Below, piece after piece: positions 10,923-19,132 of a stretch of DNA of 21,782 bases. The notes below the pieces were generated by a model. That model searched no databases. It had not been told where the DNA came from and saw only the letters and a program-made list of their open reading frames with translations. Location of the stretch: positions 1-21,782 of the forward strand of contig JAJZVM010000064.1 of assembly GCA_021845645.1 (NCBI GenBank), written 5' to 3'. Each line of letters opens with the position of its first letter. Positions within the stretch are counted from its first letter, which is position 1. The stretch is from Bacillota bacterium. Lineage in GTDB: Bacteria; Bacillota_E; JAJZYS01; JAJYTV01. Position numbers and translations under genes: made by a program.

Positions 10923-11837
10923 TTGCAAACGCCGCAGGCTCTCGTCGTCGGCCCATCCTACCTGGATGTCGTCGCCGCGCCGCTCAAGAGCTGGCCGCGG
11001 CTCGGCACTGAGGTGATCACGGAGCGGGTTGAGATTGCGGCGGGCGGCTTCGCGATCGCCGCAATCGCCCTGCGGCGCCTGGGCATAGCCGTGACGTTGG
11101 GCACCGTTCTCGGGGACGACCGCCCGGGTGCCTACCTCGCATCGCAAATCGCGGCGGAAGGCATCGAACGCGTCGGACCCAACGCCGACTCCACCGCCGT
11201 GACGCTCGCGCTGAACGGCGAGGGTGACCGCGCCTTTGTCACCGCGGGTCCGCCGCAAGGAGATGTGCTGGCCAGAGCAGGCGCGGCAGCCTTCGCGGCC
11301 CGGCCCGGGGCCCGTTGGCTGCACCTGTCGGGGCGTGGCTTCTGGGCGGCGGCCGTCGCGCGCGAGGCCAGGCGCAGGGGGATGTTCATATCCCTGGACT
11401 GCGGCACGGATGCCGCCTGGCTGGCCAGCGAGGCCTTCAAGGACATCCTTGGTCTCGTGGACATCTACCTGCCGAACGCGCTCGAGGCGGCGTTGGTCAC
11501 AGGCACCGAAGACCTGCGGGCTGCCGCGCGGGTACTCGGCGAACTCGTACCGGCGGCGATCGTCAAGCTCGGTGCGGGCGGCGTCCTGCAGGTGCGCGGC
11601 CAGGATGTGCGTCACGAGCCCGCCCTGCCGCAGACGCCCGTCGACACGACAGGCGCCGGCGACGTCTTCGACGCAGGCTATATCGCGGGACGACTCTACG
11701 GCTTTTCCGAGGACGAAGCCACGGCACTTGGCCAGTTCGCGGCCGGCCAGGCCCTGCGGGCCCTGGGCGGCGCGACGGCCGCGCCGGGGCTGGCGGAGTG
11801 CCGGGCAGCACTGCCCGACCTGCCGTGGCCCGCATAG
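10923..11837 (+). CDS. PfkB-family carbohydrate kinase
   Basis: A 304-residue ribokinase-like sugar or nucleoside kinase. The C-terminal PfkB signature VDTTGAGDVFDAGYIAGRLYG carries the catalytic base Asp in GAGD and the anion hole. VVKLG-type strand IVKLGAGGVL and NALEAALVTG are also typical. The N-terminal signature is altered: the usual GGxxxN reads GGFAIAAIALRRLG, so the sugar-contacting Asn is missing. The phosphoacceptor is unknown. TTG at 10923 follows GGAGG that lies inside the end of the preceding gene, two bases after its stop, so translation is coupled. Next to GH4, which in its best-known members cleaves phospho-glycosides, the kinase might make that substrate or phosphorylate the released sugar. 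Confidence 0.86.
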   Translation: MQTPQALVVGPSYLDVVAAPLKSWPRLGTEVITERVEIAAGGFAIAAIALRRLGIAVTLGTVLGDDRPGAYLASQIAAEGIERVGPNADSTAVTLALNGEGDRAFVTAGPPQGDVLARAGAAAFAARPGARWLHLSGRGFWAAAVAREARRRGMFISLDCGTDAAWLASEAFKDILGLVDIYLPNALEAALVTGTEDLRAAARVLGELVPAAIVKLGAGGVLQVRGQDVRHEPALPQTPVDTTGAGDVFDAGYIAGRLYGFSEDEATALGQFAAGQALRALGGATAAPGLAECRAALPDLPWPA

Positions 11838-11850
11838 TGAGGAGGTCTCG

Positions 11851-13230
11851 ATGGTGCGCTCGGTGGAAAAGGTCTCGGTGATCGGCGGAGGCGGCGTGCG
11901 CGTGCCGCTTCTGCTGCATGGGCTCTTGCGTCGCAGCCGGGAGCTCTCCCTCCAGGAGATCGTCCTGACCGACACGGTGCCCGAGCGGGCGCAGTTGATG
12001 GCAGAGCTCGGCACCGCCTTGGGCCGCTCTCTTGATGCAGAGACGCGCATCAGGGTCAGTGGGGACCTCGACGACGTCTTCGACGGGGTCGGCTTCGTCT
12101 TCTCGGCCGTGCGCACCGGAGGCGCCGAGGCCAGGATCCGCGACGAGCGGATCGCCTTGCGCCACGGCCTGATCGGTCAGGAGACCACTGGCATCGGTGG
12201 CATGTCGATGGCCTTGCGGACCATACCGGTCGTGCTGGACTTGATCGAGCGGATGCGGCGGAGGGCGCCCAGCGCCTGGTTCCTCAACTTCACGAACCCC
12301 TCCGGCCTGATCGTCGAAGCCTTGCACCAGGCGGGCCACGAGCGCGTCGTGGGGCTTTGCGACGCGCCATCTGGCCTGAAGGCCGACATCTGCCGCTACC
12401 TGGGCGTCGCGGAGGATGACGTCTCGATCGCCTACCAAGGTCTCAATCACCTTGGCTGGATCCAGTCCGTGCGGATCGAGGGGGTAGAGACCCTGCCCGG
12501 GCTCCTCGAGGGGGCGGCAGATCTCTGCAGCGGCGTGCGGACGCTGGGCTTCTTCGGACCGGAGCTGATTCAGGGCCTCGGCCTACTGCCCAACGAATAC
12601 CTTTACTACTTCTACCGCCGCCGGGCGGCGTACGAGCGCGAACTCTCGCTCGAGCGCACGCGCGGCGAGATGATCCTGGCCTGGAACGAACGGCTCTACG
12701 CCGAAGTGGGCGCCGCCCTGCGCCAGGGCGACGCGGCATCGGCGCTCGAGCGGTATCGCGCCATCCTGGCCGCCCGGCGCAACTCGTACATGACCGAAGT
12801 GACCGAATCCCGACACGACCGAGGCATCACGGCGGAGACGATCTTCACGGAAGAGGGGTACGAGGGCCTCGCCCTGCGCGTGATGACAGCCCTGGGTGGC
12901 CGGGGGGACGAGGAGCTGCATCTCAACGTGCCGAGCCGCGGCACCTCGGATATTCTCGCCCCTGACGAGGTCGGGGAACTCACGTGCGACGTGGATCTGC
13001 ACGGGGCGCATCCTCGGCTCGCCCTGCCCCTGCCGCTCGGCCCGCGCGGGCTCGTCCGCCAGGTCAAGGACTACGAGCGCCTCACGGTGCGTGCGGCTAT
13101 CCACGGCGACCGGGAGTCCGCCTTGCAGGCTGCCATGGCCCACCCTCTGATCGGCGACCGCGCGGTGGCGTCGGCCTGCCTGGACGAACTACTGGCCGCC
13201 CACCGCGATCTGCTGCCGCAGTTCGCTTGA
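11851..13230 (+). CDS. Glycoside hydrolase family 4 (NAD+/metal-dependent, 6-phospho-glycosidase type)
   Basis: A 459-residue GH4 enzyme. These hydrolyse glycosides or 6-phospho-glycosides by an oxidation-elimination mechanism needing NAD+ and a divalent metal. The Rossmann start is SVIGGGGVRVPLLL (9-22). IGQETTGIGGMSMALR (108-123) and FLNFTNPSGLIVEAL (144-158) are family hallmarks. Metal ligands C170 (GLCDAP) and H200 (GLNHLGW) are in place, matching the usual Cys/His pair. The C-terminal region (LHLNVPSRG, DVDLHGAHPR) also fits. ATG at 11851 follows GAGGAGG by five bases; a much longer open frame upstream overlaps the kinase gene and is not coding. Last gene of the operon. The exact glycoside is not determinable by eye. 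Confidence 0.9.
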   Translation: MVRSVEKVSVIGGGGVRVPLLLHGLLRRSRELSLQEIVLTDTVPERAQLMAELGTALGRSLDAETRIRVSGDLDDVFDGVGFVFSAVRTGGAEARIRDERIALRHGLIGQETTGIGGMSMALRTIPVVLDLIERMRRRAPSAWFLNFTNPSGLIVEALHQAGHERVVGLCDAPSGLKADICRYLGVAEDDVSIAYQGLNHLGWIQSVRIEGVETLPGLLEGAADLCSGVRTLGFFGPELIQGLGLLPNEYLYYFYRRRAAYERELSLERTRGEMILAWNERLYAEVGAALRQGDAASALERYRAILAARRNSYMTEVTESRHDRGITAETIFTEEGYEGLALRVMTALGGRGDEELHLNVPSRGTSDILAPDEVGELTCDVDLHGAHPRLALPLPLGPRGLVRQVKDYERLTVRAAIHGDRESALQAAMAHPLIGDRAVASACLDELLAAHRDLLPQFA

Positions 13231-13597: not shown

Positions 13598-14263
13598 TTG
13601 CGGGGTAGGCTTAGCCTAAAGGCAGCTGCGACAGGCCTTTTGGGGCTCTCGGCCTTGCTGCTTGGCCTCACTGTGCGGGCGGTGCCGCAAACCACCTTCT
13701 ATGCGCGCAATCTTCCCTGGATCATCGCGCGCGCCACCGCGCTCGCCGCACTGATCCTCCTGGCGGTGCTCGTCGCCGTGGGCATTCTCATGAGCCATCC
13801 GGTGAACAGGACAGTCTGGCGCCAGACGAAGCAGATGCTCGTCTGGCACCGCTATCTGACCGTCTTCGTCGTTGCGCTTGTGGCGCTCCACGTGGCGGCG
13901 ATCGTCCTTGACCTGTACGCCCACGTCAGCCTGGTCGGAGCGCTGGTACCCGGTTACGCCGCATACCGGACGCCAGCCGTCGCCCTCGGCACCCTGTCCC
14001 TCTACGCAATGCTGCTGACCGCCCTGACGGCGAGCCACGCCGAGAAGCTGCCGCCGAAGGTGTGGCTTTACGTGCACCGTGGGGCCATCCTCGTCTTCGC
14101 GCTCGCCTGGACCCACGGGCTGCTCGCCGGCAGCGACAGCATCGCCTTGCGCCCGCTCTACCTGGCCTTGGCCGGCCTCGTTGTGGCGGCGGCGGCGACG
14201 CGCTACTGGCTTGAGATCCCCCGCGCCCGCGGGGCTCTGCCGCAGGGAGGCAAAGAGGCATGA
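13598..14263 (+). CDS. Ferric reductase-like transmembrane di-heme cytochrome b
   Basis: A 221-residue polytopic membrane protein with six hydrophobic segments near residues 9-27, 41-65, 86-107, 124-145, 161-177 and 184-204. Segments three and five carry histidine pairs H84/H98 (WHRYL, ALHVA) and H160/H173 (YVHRG, WTHGLL), spaced 14 and 13. This is the bis-His arrangement that holds two stacked b-hemes in ferric reductase/NOX/MsrQ-like domains. It lacks the FAD and NADPH domains of full ferric reductases, so electrons must come from another carrier. TTG at 13598 follows GGGGGAG by six bases. Its stop overlaps the next ATG (ATGA). With the two motif-bearing small proteins and ApbE it likely forms a membrane electron-transfer unit. 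Electron direction and final acceptor are unknown. Confidence 0.82.
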   Translation: MRGRLSLKAAATGLLGLSALLLGLTVRAVPQTTFYARNLPWIIARATALAALILLAVLVAVGILMSHPVNRTVWRQTKQMLVWHRYLTVFVVALVALHVAAIVLDLYAHVSLVGALVPGYAAYRTPAVALGTLSLYAMLLTALTASHAEKLPPKVWLYVHRGAILVFALAWTHGLLAGSDSIALRPLYLALAGLVVAAAATRYWLEIPRARGALPQGGKEA

Positions 14264-14646
14264 AACTCCTGACACGCAGACTGCTCACGACCGTTGGCAC
14301 AGGCGCTACGCTGATCGGCGCGACCGCCGCCGTCCGCGGCGCCACCCCACCGGCACAGGCCCCGACGAAGCTCCCCGCGCTCGTGGCCATGCTGAAGTCC
14401 CAGGAGCAGGCGCAAGCCAATCTCAGTACGGCGATGCGGGACGTGAACACCCGGGACCGTCAGACCAGGACGCAGATCGGCGCCCTCGAGGCCTCGATCG
14501 CGACGACCAGGCAAAACCTTGCCGCCGCTGCCGCCGTCGCCGCGGAGCAGAGCTTGGCGACGCCAGCGGTCCAGGCGACGACGGGCGCTTCCGGAGGCGG
14601 GGACGACGGCGGCTCGGGCGACGACGGTGGCGGTGGCGATGACTAG
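14260..14646 (+). CDS. Small exported coiled-coil protein with putative C-terminal flavinylation motif
   Basis: A 128-residue protein with no recognised domain. Residues 1-28 look like a signal peptide or anchor (KLLTRRLLTTVGTGATLIGA); the TRRLL start is weakly Tat-like. About 38-98 is helical with coiled-coil character (LVAMLKSQEQAQANL, QIGALEASIATTRQNL). Residues 104-112 read VQATTGASG, matching the [S/T]GA[T/S] core that ApbE modifies; S111 would be the acceptor. A Gly/Asp tail (112-128) follows. The consensus Asp three residues before the core is Gln here (Q105). The next gene repeats the same motif and ApbE is two genes downstream, which supports covalent FMN attachment. Starts by ATGA overlap with the cytochrome gene. 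Existence of the gene is likely; flavinylation is inference. Confidence 0.75.
   Translation: MKLLTRRLLTTVGTGATLIGATAAVRGATPPAQAPTKLPALVAMLKSQEQAQANLSTAMRDVNTRDRQTRTQIGALEASIATTRQNLAAAAAVAAEQSLATPAVQATTGASGGGDDGGSGDDGGGGDD
14572..14594 (+). repeat. Direct repeat copy 1, encoding VQATTGASG
   Basis: A 23-base stretch that recurs at 15008-15030 with one silent difference (T at 14589, C at 15025). Each copy encodes QATTGASG in the reading frame of its gene, at or near the C-terminus. It is either a recent duplication of the motif or strong constraint at protein level. Confidence 0.85.
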
Positions 14647-15040
14647 ATCCACCTCCCGTCACACCGTGGCCAATGGCGGTACGGGCGGGCAGGTGCACAT
14701 CGGCCGCCTGCTCACCCTGATCGGGGTGGCGGCGGCCACCTACGCGTGGGCGCTGAACCCGGTCCTCGCATCGTTGCGCCCCACGGCGGCGCGCAACGCG
14801 CGGCAGGCAATCCTGGCGCGGCGCGTGTCGCACGTGGCGCTTGAGAACCGGCGCCTGGCACAGAAGCTGCGCAAGGAGGAGCGCGCCCTTGCGGCGGACA
14901 CCGCCCACGCCGCCTCGCTGAGCATGACCTTGGCGGACCTCAGGCGCCAGAAGCCCCCGGCGGCACCCGTGACGCCCGCGGTGGGCAACGTCGCCGTGCC
15001 GACTGTGCAGGCGACGACGGGCGCCTCCGGCATGCCGTGA
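14639..15040 (+). CDS. Membrane-anchored coiled-coil protein with putative C-terminal flavinylation motif
   Basis: A 133-residue protein. After a polar N-terminus comes one membrane helix (about 23-46, RLLTLIGVAAATYAWALNPV). A charged helical stretch follows (52-104, with ALENRRLAQKLRKEERALAAD), likely coiled coil, then a Pro/Ala/Val linker and a C-terminus ending VQATTGASGMP. T127-G-A-S130 fits the ApbE target core, S130 being the predicted acceptor, at four residues from the end. The layout (anchor, helical stalk, motif) parallels the preceding protein, yet the sequences otherwise differ. Arginines flank both sides of the membrane helix, so topology is ambiguous. The ATG at 14639 overlaps the preceding stop by eight bases with only a weak GGTGG site, so it depends on coupling. 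No known family recognised. Confidence 0.75.
   Translation: MTRSTSRHTVANGGTGGQVHIGRLLTLIGVAAATYAWALNPVLASLRPTAARNARQAILARRVSHVALENRRLAQKLRKEERALAADTAHAASLSMTLADLRRQKPPAAPVTPAVGNVAVPTVQATTGASGMP
15008..15030 (+). repeat. Direct repeat copy 2, encoding VQATTGASG
   Basis: Second copy of the repeat at 14572-14594, 436 bases downstream, one mismatch in 23. It encodes the C-terminal QATTGASG of the membrane-anchored small protein. Confidence 0.85.
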
Positions 15041-15945
15041 TGATCACCGCGCAGGGCCGCGTCTACAGGTGGCGCGCCATGGCCTCCCCCATCTCGCTAC
15101 ACCTGCCGGACCTCGACGAGGTCCTGGGCCAGGCGGTGGCGCAGGCCATCGCAAGCGACATCGAAACGACCGAGCAGGCCCTTTCGCGCTTCAGGGATAC
15201 GGCTGAACTCGTGTCCCTAAATGCCCGTGTCGGTCAGTGGACCGCCATCTCGGACCGGCTCTACCGAGCGCTCTCTGCCGCCCGCCGGGCCAATCTGCGC
15301 ACAGAGGGCCTGTTCGACCCCCGCGTGCTCGAACGTCTCGAGGCGTACGGCTATGCGGGCGCACCTCATCCGGGCCCCAAGCCGTCGGCCATTTCGGGTC
15401 CGTGGCTGATGCGCAGGCCCCGCAAGCGCGAGGTTATGCTCGGCGCGCGTGTGGACCTCGGCGGCATCGGCAAGGGGCTGGCCGTTCGCTGGGCCGCATC
15501 GATCGCGCAGCACGTCACCGCGAACTACCTGCTGAATGCGGGCGGCGATCTCATTGCCGCCGGTCCTGGCCTTGACGGACAGGGCTGGCAAATCGGCGTG
15601 GAGGATCCGCAGACTCCGGACCTGCTGAGAGCGGCGTTGCGCATATCGACGCGGAAAGCCGTCTGCACATCCTCCGTGGCGCGGCTGCGCTGGACGCAGC
15701 GCAGCGAGCGGGTACACCACCTGATCGATCCGCGCAGCGGTCAGCCGGGCGGCCGGGGGCTCCTGGCGGTGACCGTTTTGGGCAGGGACCCGGCCTGGAG
15801 TGAAGTCCTCAGCAAGACGCTCTTCCTGCACGGCTCAAAAGGCATCGGCAGGGCCGCCGCAGGGCACGCGGCCATCTGGATCGGCCAGGATGGCGAACTC
15901 GGAATGACCGACGAAGCCCAGGCCTTCGTGTTCTGGCGCCCGTGA
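15040..15945 (+). CDS. apbE: ApbE-family FAD:protein FMN transferase
   Basis: Transfers FMN from FAD to a Ser/Thr of target proteins, forming a phosphoester. The 301-residue protein shows the family path: RAMASPISL (12-20), ALSRFRDTAELVSLN (47-61), LFDPRV (91-96), VDLGGIGKGLAV (138-149), NAGGDLIAAG (166-175) and HHLIDPRSGQP (226-236). The C-terminal segment that usually reads ADAxxTALF is WSEVLSKTLF here, so the Asp and Thr that help bind Mg2+ appear as E255 and K259 (T260 adjacent). No signal peptide or lipobox is visible, unlike many exported ApbE proteins. The ATG at 15040 overlaps the preceding stop (TGATG); GTG at 15037 is an alternative. As last gene of the operon it presumably modifies the two VQATTGASG proteins encoded just before it. 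Confidence 0.88.
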   Translation: MITAQGRVYRWRAMASPISLHLPDLDEVLGQAVAQAIASDIETTEQALSRFRDTAELVSLNARVGQWTAISDRLYRALSAARRANLRTEGLFDPRVLERLEAYGYAGAPHPGPKPSAISGPWLMRRPRKREVMLGARVDLGGIGKGLAVRWAASIAQHVTANYLLNAGGDLIAAGPGLDGQGWQIGVEDPQTPDLLRAALRISTRKAVCTSSVARLRWTQRSERVHHLIDPRSGQPGGRGLLAVTVLGRDPAWSEVLSKTLFLHGSKGIGRAAAGHAAIWIGQDGELGMTDEAQAFVFWRP

Positions 15946-16058: not shown

Positions 16059-16700
16059 CTAATGCATGTGGTAGCCGGCGAACGTCTCGCGGATGCGCCT
16101 TGCCTCCGCGCTGTCGAGCGACCTTGGCCCCATCCCCCGCGTCAGAAGGTAGTGGAGAGCCGCCTCATCGGCGGCGATGGCGCAGCTGTACGCCTCCATG
16201 AGGTTGCGTCCCGTGGCGCAGAGGCCGTGGTTGCGCATAAGGCAGGCGCTGGCGCCCGTCTCGAGCAGCAGGTCGGCCGCCTCGCTTGCCAGCAGTGCCG
16301 ACCCGGCCGGGCGGTAGGCGGCCACGGGAAGGTGGAGTCCGATCAAGCCGTGGCCCTCACCCGTGAAGATCGGCACCTCGTTCGTGATCAGCGCGGCGGC
16401 AACCGCGTACGGCGCGTGGTCGTGCCAGACGGCCGAGGCCTGCGGCAGGCGGCGGTAGATCGCGAGGTGCAGTTCGAGCTCGCTCGAGGGCCTTCCCGCA
16501 CGGACGTCGCCGTCGAGGCCGACCACAGCCATATCCCCCGCCCTGAGCCTGAGATAGTCGCTCGCCGTCGGCGTGATCAGAACTTCATCGCCCATGCGCA
16601 CCGAGACGTTGCCGAATGTGCCGCGCAGTACGCCCTCCCTGGCGCCCCGACGCACGAACCGCAGGAGTTCGCGCCGAACAAGTTCCTCCTCTGGCGGCAA
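16059..16700 (-). CDS. Class II aldolase/adducin-family protein
   Basis: A 213-residue zinc-dependent aldolase of the fuculose-phosphate aldolase/ribulose-5-phosphate epimerase type. GTFGNVSVR (in place of GTxGNISxR), ITPTASDY, the catalytic glutamate in SSELELHL, the zinc histidines in HDHAPYAVA and the third histidine in RNHGLCATG are all present. The substrate is usually a phosphorylated keto-sugar cleaved to dihydroxyacetone phosphate or a related product; the exact sugar is unknown. TTG at 16700 is preferred because GAGGAGGG lies six bases before it and homologs begin here; an ATG at 16751 has no ribosome binding site. It is divergent from the Lon gene, with 68 bp between starts. Confidence 0.86.
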   Translation of the reverse strand: MPPEEELVRRELLRFVRRGAREGVLRGTFGNVSVRMGDEVLITPTASDYLRLRAGDMAVVGLDGDVRAGRPSSELELHLAIYRRLPQASAVWHDHAPYAVAAALITNEVPIFTGEGHGLIGLHLPVAAYRPAGSALLASEAADLLLETGASACLMRNHGLCATGRNLMEAYSCAIAADEAALHYLLTRGMGPRSLDSAEARRIRETFAGYHMH

Positions 16701-16768
16701 AGGGATCCCTCCTCGACAAAGGCAGGAGTCTCCTGTCTGCTGCGGAAACATGACACGAGGTGGTCCGA

Positions 16769-19132
16769 GTGGGCTACGCATCGCTCGACCCGCAGACGCT
16801 GCGCTGGCAGCTCGATCCCCAGACTCTCGGCTTCGCATCGACAGAAGAGGTCATCGCGCAAGAGCGCCTCGTCGGCCAGCCGCGTGCGGAGGAGGCGATG
16901 GCGTTCGCCATCTCCCTCAGGCGCCACGGCTACCACATCTATGTTTCCGGGCCGACGGGCACGGGACGCACGACTTACGCTCGGCGCCGCCTCCGCGAGG
17001 CGGCGGAAGATCTGCCGCCCGCGCGCGACTGGCTGTACCTGCCAAACTTCCAGAACCCTCAAGCGCCGCAGGCCGTCGCTGTGGCCGCGGGCACCGGCCC
17101 GCACTTCGCCCAGGCCTTGCGCCAACTTCGCCGCGACCTTTCCGAGCGCCTGCCGCAGGCATTCGCCTCGGACGAATATCGCGCCGCAAGGGACCAGGTG
17201 CTGGAACAGGCTGCGGAGAGCACCGAACGGGAGTTCGCAACGTTCCAGCGCGAGGCGCGCGCGCTCGGTTTCGTGGTCAAGCCGGGGCCCACCGGCTTGC
17301 AGAGCCTGCCGCTCAAGGACGGCCAGCCGCTCGACCAGGAAGCCGTGGCGGCGATGGGCAACGACGAGCGCGAGGAACTCTCGGCAAGGTCGCAGCAGGT
17401 GGCGAAGCTCGGCGAGGCGTTCGTGCGTCAGGCGCACGAAATACAGCTCGTGGCCCAGCGCACCCTGGGCGATCTCGCCATCCAGCGGGCCAGCTACGCG
17501 TCAGCACCGCTCTTCGCCGCGCTGGTCGCCGCCTTCCCCGGCTCCGCCTTCAGTCACCACCTCGGGCAGTTGCAGGAGCGGATCGGCGAGTGGCTCGCGC
17601 TGTTCGTGCCGCCCGATGGCCAGGAAGCTCCGCCCGATCCGGGCTGGTTCGCGGTGAACGCGCTCGTCACGCGCGAGAGCGCGGAAGCCCCCGTCATCTA
17701 CGAGCCCAACCCCTCGTACTACAACCTGATGGGTCGCCTGGAGTACGAAGGCGGGCCCGAAGGATCGCTGCGCACCGGTTTCCACCTCATCCGCGCCGGC
17801 GCCATCCACCAGGCGAACGGCGGCTTCCTGATCGTGCCGGCCCGCGAACTCGTGCAGAACCCGCTTGCCTATGAAGGGTTGAAGCGAGCGCTGCAGCACC
17901 ACGTCGCGCGGATCGAGAACGTCGGGCAGCAGGAGCGCCCGATGCCCACGTCGGGGCTGAGACCGGAGCCCATCCCACTTGACGTGCAGGTGGTGCTCAT
18001 CGGACCGGAGAGCGCCTATCTGCAACTGAGGGAGCTCGACGAGCAGTTCCGCAAGCTGTTCAAGACGCGCGTCGACTTCAGCGCCGACATGGAGAACACG
18101 GCAGAGAACAGGACCGCGATGGCCGGCTTTTTGGCCGGACTCGCCCAGACCCATGGCATACGTCCACTGTCGGCCGATGGCGTGGCACGCATGATGGAAG
18201 AGGCCGCAAGGAACGCAGGTGGCCGCCGGCGCCTCTCCACGCGCATGTCCGACATCATCGAGCTGGCCGTGGAGGCCGATGCCTTTGCGCAGCAGGGCGG
18301 CAGGCACACGATCGACGCGGAAGCGGTCCGGGCGGCCCTCCTTGCCCGGCGCCAGCGCGCCGGGCTACTCGAGGAGCGCATGCTGGAGATGATCCAGCTC
18401 GGCACGATCCGCATCGAGACGAAGGGTACGCGCATCGGCCAGGTCAACGGCCTCACGGTGCTTACCGCGGGGGAGCGGTCGTTCGGGCTTCCTGCCCGCA
18501 TCACTGCACGCACGTACGCGGGATCGGCCGGCGTCGTCGACATCGAACGCGAAATCCAGCTCTCAGGACCGATCCATTCCAAGGGCGTGCTCACGCTCTC
18601 AGGTTACCTCGGCTGGCGGTTCGGGCAGCAGAGGCCGCTCGGCCTGTCGGCCAGCCTGACCATCGAACAGAACTACGGCGGCATCGAGGGAGACTCCGCC
18701 TCATCCACGGAACTCTACGCCATCCTCTCCGATCTGAGCGGTCTTCCCATCCGCCAGGAGATCGCGGTGACGGGGTCGGTGGACCAGGCGGGGCGCATAC
18801 AGCCGATCGGTGGCGTCAACGAAAAAATCGAGGGTTTCTTCGCCGTCTGCAAGGCCCAGGGGCTGACCGGCAGCCAAGGCTGCATGATCCCGCAGCAGAA
18901 CGTCGACGACCTGATGCTTTCGGACGAGGTGCTCGCCGCGGTACGCGACGGCCGGTTCCATGTCTACGCGATCGAGACGATCGAGCAGGGCATCGAGCTG
19001 CTCACCGGCGTCCCGGCCGGCGACGACAGCGACCCGTTCCGTCAGGGCAGCGTGTTCCAGCTCGTCGCGGAGCGTCTGGGCGGCTACGCCGACTCTGTGC
19101 CCGGGCTGTCCGCCCAGGCGCATAGCAAGTAG
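16769..19132 (+). CDS. Lon-family ATP-dependent protease (LonB-like, AAA_32 type)
   Basis: A 787-residue cytoplasmic protein combining an atypical AAA+ region and a C-terminal Lon protease domain. The P-loop is GPTGTGRT (61-68), with Arg where classical Walker A has Lys, as I recall for this subfamily. A long helical insertion follows (about 100-290), then EYEGGPEGSLRTGFHLIRAGAIHQANGGFLI and the AAA small domain. The protease domain starts around 570 and holds the Ser-Lys dyad S643 (GDSASSTE) and K686 (GGVNEKIEGF), 43 residues apart as in E. coli Lon. The N-terminal substrate domain of LonA is absent. GTG at 16769 follows GAGG by eight bases; GTG at 16760 is possible but overlaps that site. 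Substrates are unknown. It is transcribed alone. Confidence 0.9.
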   Translation: MGYASLDPQTLRWQLDPQTLGFASTEEVIAQERLVGQPRAEEAMAFAISLRRHGYHIYVSGPTGTGRTTYARRRLREAAEDLPPARDWLYLPNFQNPQAPQAVAVAAGTGPHFAQALRQLRRDLSERLPQAFASDEYRAARDQVLEQAAESTEREFATFQREARALGFVVKPGPTGLQSLPLKDGQPLDQEAVAAMGNDEREELSARSQQVAKLGEAFVRQAHEIQLVAQRTLGDLAIQRASYASAPLFAALVAAFPGSAFSHHLGQLQERIGEWLALFVPPDGQEAPPDPGWFAVNALVTRESAEAPVIYEPNPSYYNLMGRLEYEGGPEGSLRTGFHLIRAGAIHQANGGFLIVPARELVQNPLAYEGLKRALQHHVARIENVGQQERPMPTSGLRPEPIPLDVQVVLIGPESAYLQLRELDEQFRKLFKTRVDFSADMENTAENRTAMAGFLAGLAQTHGIRPLSADGVARMMEEAARNAGGRRRLSTRMSDIIELAVEADAFAQQGGRHTIDAEAVRAALLARRQRAGLLEERMLEMIQLGTIRIETKGTRIGQVNGLTVLTAGERSFGLPARITARTYAGSAGVVDIEREIQLSGPIHSKGVLTLSGYLGWRFGQQRPLGLSASLTIEQNYGGIEGDSASSTELYAILSDLSGLPIRQEIAVTGSVDQAGRIQPIGGVNEKIEGFFAVCKAQGLTGSQGCMIPQQNVDDLMLSDEVLAAVRDGRFHVYAIETIEQGIELLTGVPAGDDSDPFRQGSVFQLVAERLGGYADSVPGLSAQAHSK

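Follow-up and report, generated by a model that had tools for sequence, protein, structure and literature searches.

A predicted minimal flavin-tether unit in a Bacillota genome: small stalk proteins with a C-terminal ApbE motif encoded beside a membrane cytochrome

How could a flavin transferase serve a membrane heme protein when no flavin-binding domain is encoded with them? This question is raised by a four-gene locus in a 21,782-nucleotide stretch of DNA from a Bacillota bacterium (contig JAJZVM010000064.1 of GCA_021845645.1), the whole of which is referred to as the window. The locus encodes a membrane cytochrome (cyt), two small proteins (SP1 and SP2), and ApbE, which transfers flavin mononucleotide (FMN) from flavin adenine dinucleotide (FAD) to proteins. 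On the + strand, cyt, SP1, SP2, and apbE overlap in this order by 4, 8, and 4 bases, in agreement with the original prediction, made from the DNA letters alone, that they form one overlapping unit, and both small proteins indeed have the N-terminal hydrophobic segment and the VQATTGASG pointed out there. We consider it likely that SP1 and SP2 bear a natural flavin tag at the C-terminus, to which an ApbE without a signal peptide would link FMN, and that they would exchange electrons with the cytochrome, so that the locus would represent a minimal flavin-tether unit.

The VQATTGASG tag ends two residues short of the C-terminus of SP2 and is followed in SP1 by a 16-residue Gly/Asp-rich stretch, and the two 27-base stretches encoding it differ at three positions, each of them a third codon position. 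Of the 142 stop-to-stop frames of at least 80 aa in the window, just two, SP1 and SP2, have [ST]GA[ST] within 25 residues of their end. Neither protein matched a Pfam family above its cut-off, and the structure model of SP2 comprises a helix at residues 21-103 and then a disordered tail (predicted local distance difference test score, 72; predicted template modelling score, 0.31). The aligned homologs, some of which are close relatives (L077 and L048) and from which L080 was left out, were 20-44% identical to the window copy for SP1 (n = 13) and 18-50% for SP2 (n = 14), and TGAS was present in 12 of the 13 SP1 sequences and [ST]GAS in all 14 SP2 sequences (TGAS in 13 and SGAS in one). The SP2 alignment has no invariant or nearly invariant column outside the tag, and TGAS was among the few conserved positions of SP1, together with M1, G13, P30, A92, and G126; an SP2 from the database (P0003) has TGSS at the tag. 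SP1 and SP2 thus contain the [ST]GA[ST] core with a Ser/Thr acceptor that is expected of an ApbE substrate and lack the Asp expected before it, the residue three before the core being Q in the window, Q or H in most homologs, and D in the SP1 of L030, L072, and L073, which belong to one genus. According to the main text of a review (PMC12052999), seven residues at a chain terminus are enough for ApbE and replacement of the leading Asp has a minor effect, and it is therefore likely that Ser111 of SP1 and Ser130 of SP2 are flavinylated. A further database protein, P0009, is an ApbE/SP2 chimera on a 1 kb contig and is probably an assembly artefact.

The cytochrome, previously described as ferric-reductase-like, matched Pfam Ferric_reduct (PF01794) at 3.4e-7, above the cut-off, and the two bis-His pairs claimed for it were borne out in that H84, H98, H160, and H173 are the sole invariant histidines among 15 cytochrome homologs, making these pairs the predicted heme ligands. 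By sequence and model, it has the transmembrane heme reductase core of the NOX/STEAP type, with two bis-His pairs on six helices; the Foldseek search alone gave no significant match, and no Pfam match to a fused NAD(P)H/FAD module was found in the protein. The apbE product, likewise recognized correctly as an ApbE homolog, matched PF02424 at 4.2e-43 and 13 distinct PDB sequences at E ≤ 0.001 (best, 1vrm at 2.8e-22) and contains the HxxDP active-site stretch. By hydropathy, without a signal-peptide program, no hydrophobic stretch was found before its first conserved ApbE motif, nor in any of the SP-linked ApbEs with the N-terminal motif located (L080 was unscorable, and G007 and G008 were outside the set). 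According to the main text of PMC12052999, export is the usual case for ApbEs, with some named exceptions that are cytosolic.

The distribution of the unit was surveyed in 154 genomes of the class of the source genome. The cytochrome profile (A1) matched 37 genomes at E ≤ 0.001, 16 of them below 1e-40, and the SP2 profile (A6) matched 18, of which the 14 with matches below 1e-13 were taken as SP2 holders and four weaker ones were set aside. SP2 adjoins the cytochrome in 13 of the 14 holders; the SP2 and the cytochrome of G008 are not on the same contig, the cytochrome being at a contig end. The named holders include Sulfobacillus thermosulfidooxidans (P0001 and P0002), the Bacillota metagenome-assembled genomes DX1.bin88, MAS3.bin149, and Bu54, and, outside Bacillota, the metagenome-assembled genome ZJ3.bin39 (Actinomycetes, L069). 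The order cyt-SP1-SP2-apbE was found in the window, L025, L029, L077, and L079, the order SP1-SP2-apbE-cyt in L030, L072, L073, L074, L069, and L080, and cyt-SP1-SP2 with apbE on the opposite strand in L076 or elsewhere in G007; the contig of L078 has no apbE, and other apbE genes are present in its genome. ApbE was present in 14/14 SP2 genomes versus 86/140 others (Fisher p 0.002, uncorrected for relatedness). In L070 (3809-5902), a gene for a protein with S-layer homology and a CAP domain is divergent from the cytochrome-SP1-SP2 genes.

FMN_bind (PF04205) is not encoded in the cluster, and no match to it was found at E ≤ 0.001 in the source genome, which is 99.4% complete. In the class, FMN_bind was present in 68 of the 154 genomes, namely in 2/14 SP2 genomes (G075 and G125, both weak) versus 66/140 others, a depletion with a Fisher p of 0.02, uncorrected for relatedness.

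A similar tail was found on a third protein. ApbEs 60-67% identical to that of the window, without adjoining SPs, are present in five relatives (G001, G002, G005, G007, and G008), among which G007 and G008 have SP1/SP2 elsewhere in the genome. A tag-pattern search and locus reading revealed a small secreted-looking protein ending in VHTSSGASG or close to it (SP3), with an N-terminus that is signal-peptide-like by eye, in G001, G002, G003, and G005; the SP2 profile search found no SP2 in these four genomes, and G001 and G002 are of the same genus as the source genome and lack SP1/SP2. On the strand of the orthologous apbE, SP3 is present in two copies in G001, ~3 and ~7 kb away, and ~6 kb away in G002; of the G001 copies, one is an in-frame fusion with part of a membrane protein. 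SP3 lies on a different contig from the orthologous apbE in G005, and in G003 (78% complete) that apbE was not found. Moreover, in G106 and G107 (L163 and L164), SP3 immediately precedes apbE, and the two genes are flanked by unannotated genes for multi-pass membrane proteins; the apbE of G106 is interrupted by a stop. A database search for SP3 yielded 15 proteins, all 15 ending in [ST]GASG or [ST]GASGAP. SP3 has the tail in common with SP1 and SP2, and no other likeness was seen, the structures having been left uncompared. By eye alone, and without a useful database match, the multi-pass neighbours in L164 and L163 look like cytochrome oxidase subunit I.

Inspection of the open reading frame (ORF) upstream of each collected ApbE revealed a second locus type, consisting of a small membrane protein, apbE, and a cytochrome, in which the stalks end in Ser (...TQSTVS, ...TNVS, ...TRTRRS, and ...QSRTGAS). 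One such locus is in the source genome itself but not in the window (G000, contig C93; L082, 7244-9437), where a small membrane protein ending in TQSTVS precedes a second apbE. Downstream of this apbE is another Ferric_reduct cytochrome, whose long C-terminal extension closes with an acidic, Gly-rich tail. The prediction that the stalks end in [ST]xxS-COOH was fixed before the ApbE of a Paenibacillus-like genome was used to search 149 genomes from the same taxonomic order. Of these, 70 matched, and 50 loci were examined, 11 further listed matches, including G255 (= L177), being left out. A cytochrome homolog started within ~220 bases downstream in 50/50 loci. Under a first, too strict rule, the top upstream candidate had the tag in 22 loci and the second in 3, with another ending in 1 and no ORF in 24. 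The rule was then loosened once by lowering the hydropathy threshold, neither rule considering the C-terminus, and three repeat loci were removed; the top upstream ORF then ended in the [ST]xxS tag in 44 of the 47 loci and the second candidate did so in L185, L223, and L226. Genus g150, already in the discovery set, accounted for 20 of the 47, and in the remaining 27 loci (13 genera) the tag was on the top candidate in 25 and on the second in 2. Cytochrome and such an ORF were absent in all 14 low-scoring ApbE loci, and the background rate of [ST]xxS ends was 12 in 1152 frames of at least 280 aa, some of them spurious.

In all, 82 distinct ApbE loci had a cytochrome just downstream, with the tag in 72, no membrane ORF by the rule in six, another ending in three (the second-candidate cases above), and a Ser end without the core in one (L086, RARRS). 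Three of the six (L044, L067, and L087) begin at contig ends, and the other three (L062, L176, and L177) have a Ser-ended small ORF missed by the rule. Among 43 ApbE loci without such a cytochrome, the tag was found in 10 (eight SP2/SP3 loci, L058, and L059), none in 32, and another ending in one. When one row per genus was picked by hand, 35 of the 36 genera fitted, the class part of this list being hypothesis-forming. In the class of G337, 5 of the 72 genomes searched had a match; these gave three new loci, one of them in an already seen genus, each with an ORF on the strand of the cytochrome ending in RTGRS, VSRPS, or RSRPS; the ApbE motif was confirmed in L248 only. A response regulator gene follows apbE and the cytochrome in L032, L084, L086, L087, and L178-L180, with a histidine kinase gene too where in view (by eye).

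The ApbEs at tagged loci also differ in the residues D...T, which we take to be metal-site ligands. The ApbEs were assigned by hand to a tag and a no-tag group. Of the 63 scored in the tag group (16 unscored), 52 have E...K, 5 have D...K, and 6 have D...T; of the 16 scored in the no-tag group (5 unscored), 15 have D...T and 1 has D...K. The five orthologs without SPs beside them have E...K in 5/5, indicating that the metal-site change tracks the ApbE clade and does not prove tag use. The ApbE without an export signal and the membership of the tag in a wider class both go beyond what the original prediction expected. Its central proposal, that the small proteins would carry FMN without a domain beside a predicted di-heme membrane protein, has gained support of a comparative kind, because the motif is kept while the sequence drifts, an unrelated protein that is secreted and encoded close or next to related ApbEs has a similar tail, FMN_bind was not found in the source genome, and the wider-class prediction held in further loci. 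With the balance lying about evenly for and against, domain-less C-terminal flavin tags may be widespread, overlooked bacterial electron carriers, that is, small membrane stalks ending in [ST]GAS or relaxed [ST]xxS-COOH, often HTRSxAS, which would be modified in the cytoplasm by a subclass of ApbEs that lack a signal peptide and have a changed metal site (mostly E...K), and would then be exported as tethered mobile flavins for NOX/STEAP-like hemes, both across Bacillota and in one or more lineages of Actinomycetes.

As for the mechanism, we infer flavinylation, topology, the direction of electron flow, and the acceptor as follows. ApbE would transfer FMN from FAD onto the Ser of the TTGAS tag of SP1 and SP2. 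Because ApbE lacks an export signal, the attachment would probably occur in the cytoplasm, with the tail translocated afterwards, which would fit the position of the tag at the chain end. SP1 and SP2 would be anchored in the membrane by their N-terminus and, lacking a flavin-binding domain, would hold their FMN, probably in an extracytoplasmic position, by means of a helical stalk and a flexible tail. The cytochrome would pass electrons through two stacked hemes between a membrane donor, either menaquinol or linked to reduced nicotinamide adenine dinucleotide (NADH), and the tethered flavins, for which electron exchange with these hemes is probable, and the flavins would then reduce something beyond the membrane. 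In L067 (1-3023), where the region upstream of apbE is missing from the contig, apbE, the cytochrome, and a NuoF-like gene (PF01512 and PF10589) stand in a row, which hints at an NADH donor there. Ferric iron is a candidate acceptor by way of a guess fed by Sulfobacillus physiology, as the main text of PMC4378227 ascribes ferric iron reduction, by enzymes about which little is known, to all isolate species of this genus. SP2 was present in 2/8 genomes of genus group g70, which includes the S. thermosulfidooxidans-like G116 and is taken for Sulfobacillus because the SP2 of G116 contains the P0001 sequence; therefore, the unit cannot be the general route of ferric iron reduction there, which weakens this guess.

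The locus resembles the MsrQ-like flavinylation systems (Meheust et al, 2021; PMC8238504), for which the main text describes a PF01794 membrane protein with six helices and two hemes predicted and apbE in the cluster, as in the window, and 31 clusters with a NuoF-like gene, as in L067. It differs from them in having two C-terminally tagged small stalks instead of an FMN_bind protein and an ApbE without a signal peptide, FMN_bind being a usual rather than absolute feature of those clusters, since the survey says 'typically'. Thus, the SP unit is a variant of the MsrQ-like flavinylation systems in which the FMN_bind protein is replaced, so that the gene set, in which the original prediction recognized no described system, belongs in part to a known type. 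The main text of the same survey gives a signal peptide or lipid site on the target gene (ApbE, FMN_bind, DUF3570, or DUF2271) as a criterion; the N-terminus of the window ApbE is not hydrophobic, by hydropathy only, and the SP1/SP2 design would have dropped out of this filter. SP1 and SP2 are also like the engineered flavin-tag (Tong et al, 2021, as covered in the main text of PMC12052999) in that a short ApbE motif at the chain end is the sole acceptor, but they are genome-encoded, natural, on membrane stalks, and mostly Q/H-x-x-[ST]-G-A-S, not Asp-led. In FMN_red with a flavinylated C-terminal extension (mSystems, 2024; PMC11334425, main text), the motif is likewise on an unstructured C-terminal extension, which, however, adjoins the flavin site of a flavin-binding fold, whereas SP1 and SP2 show no such fold. 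The DUF4405 cytochromes of that text are likewise apbE-associated membrane heme proteins with four central His, but the score of the window cytochrome for DUF4405, 16.6 bits, is below the cut-off of 26.7. No description of natural C-terminally flavin-tagged stalk proteins was found in the literature covered, which comprised main texts without supplements, most subscription papers being outside its scope.

Several observations weigh against the proposed flavin-tag function. Tagless small-protein homologs beside apbE, which the original prediction had named as a sign against it, do occur in part, as SP1 is tagless in L074, L069 (read by eye, unaligned), and L080; the partner SP2 still ends in TGAS in L074 and L069 and in VTRGS in L080. 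The canonical Asp of DxxSGAT is replaced by Gln, His, or Asn in most homologs, and the metal site of the window ApbE, E...K instead of D...T, differs from that of canonical ApbE. The apbE genes of G007 and G008 are elsewhere in the genome than cyt, SP1, and SP2, beside a molybdopterin oxidoreductase gene in both (L023 and L024; Pfam run for L023). ApbE lacks a signal peptide although the SP tails are predicted to be outside, and the charge bias is clearly in favour of N-in/C-out for some homologs only; for the window SP2, a charge of +1 before and +3 after the segment would favour C-in. Furthermore, the FMN_bind negative leaves DUF2271, DUF3570, NqrB, and Flavodoxin_4 unsearched in the source genome.

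Some of these points fit an unlikely arrangement in which the tags do serve as substrates of ApbE while the C-termini are cytoplasmic and electrons are moved on the inner face, matching the charge bias of the window SP2 and the scorable SP-linked ApbEs, which have no hydrophobic N-terminus. This is opposed by the signal-like segment at the start of SP1, which follows RR or KR in 8/13, by the SP2 of L030, L072, L073, L074, and L069, with charges of +5 to +6 before and 0 to +2 after the segment pointing to C-out, and by the signal-peptide-like N-terminus of SP3. That the relaxed [ST]xxS-COOH does not keep the G and A of the known ApbE motif would be explained if the C-terminal motif bore no covalent flavin and acted as a peptide for the docking of ApbE or the cytochrome, a case that we regard as slightly less likely still, because TGAS is the known ApbE target core, the tag is also on a different protein, SP3, and engineered terminal 7-residue tags get flavinylated, as the main text of PMC12052999 describes. 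It is very improbable that the locus is an ordinary MsrQ-like system with its true substrate elsewhere in the genome and SP1/SP2 as accessories, a reading in line with the second apbE of the source genome and with the FMN-binding gene that MsrQ-like clusters typically include (PMC8238504, main text); against it, FMN_bind is unmatched in a nearly complete genome of a class in which it is common, other substrate families being unsearched.

If natural flavin tagging of SP1 and SP2 is true, nature already uses the 'flavin tag' described by protein engineers in 2021, a covalent electron-carrying flavin requires no flavin-binding domain, and exported targets can be served by an ApbE without an export signal. 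The remaining substrates of orphan apbE genes are said to be unidentified in the main text of PMC8238504, and the SP proteins supply candidate substrates for them. The design seems to be used by acid-loving bacteria and, by gene pattern, by other Gram-positive bacteria.

Table 1. Features of the predicted flavin-tether unit, in positions of the window.
Feature	Positions	Strand	Description
cyt	13598..14263	+	221 aa, TTG start; membrane cytochrome, NOX/STEAP-like core, bis-His pairs H84/H98 and H160/H173
SP1	14260..14646	+	128 aa; N-terminal signal/anchor with RR; VQATTGASG at 104-112, then Gly/Asp-rich tail
SP1 tag codons	14569..14595	+	predicted FMN site Ser111, codon 14590-14592
SP2	14639..15040	+	133 aa, ATG at 14639; membrane-anchored stalk protein; VQATTGASG at 123-131
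SP2 tag codons	15005..15031	+	predicted FMN site Ser130, codon 15026-15028
apbE	15037..15945	+	302 aa, GTG start; FAD:protein FMN transferase; no signal peptide, no membrane segment

With no clear link to the unit, genes for a PfkB kinase and a family 4 glycosidase lie upstream (window 10923-13227), and a class II aldolase gene lies downstream on the opposite strand (window 16059-16838).

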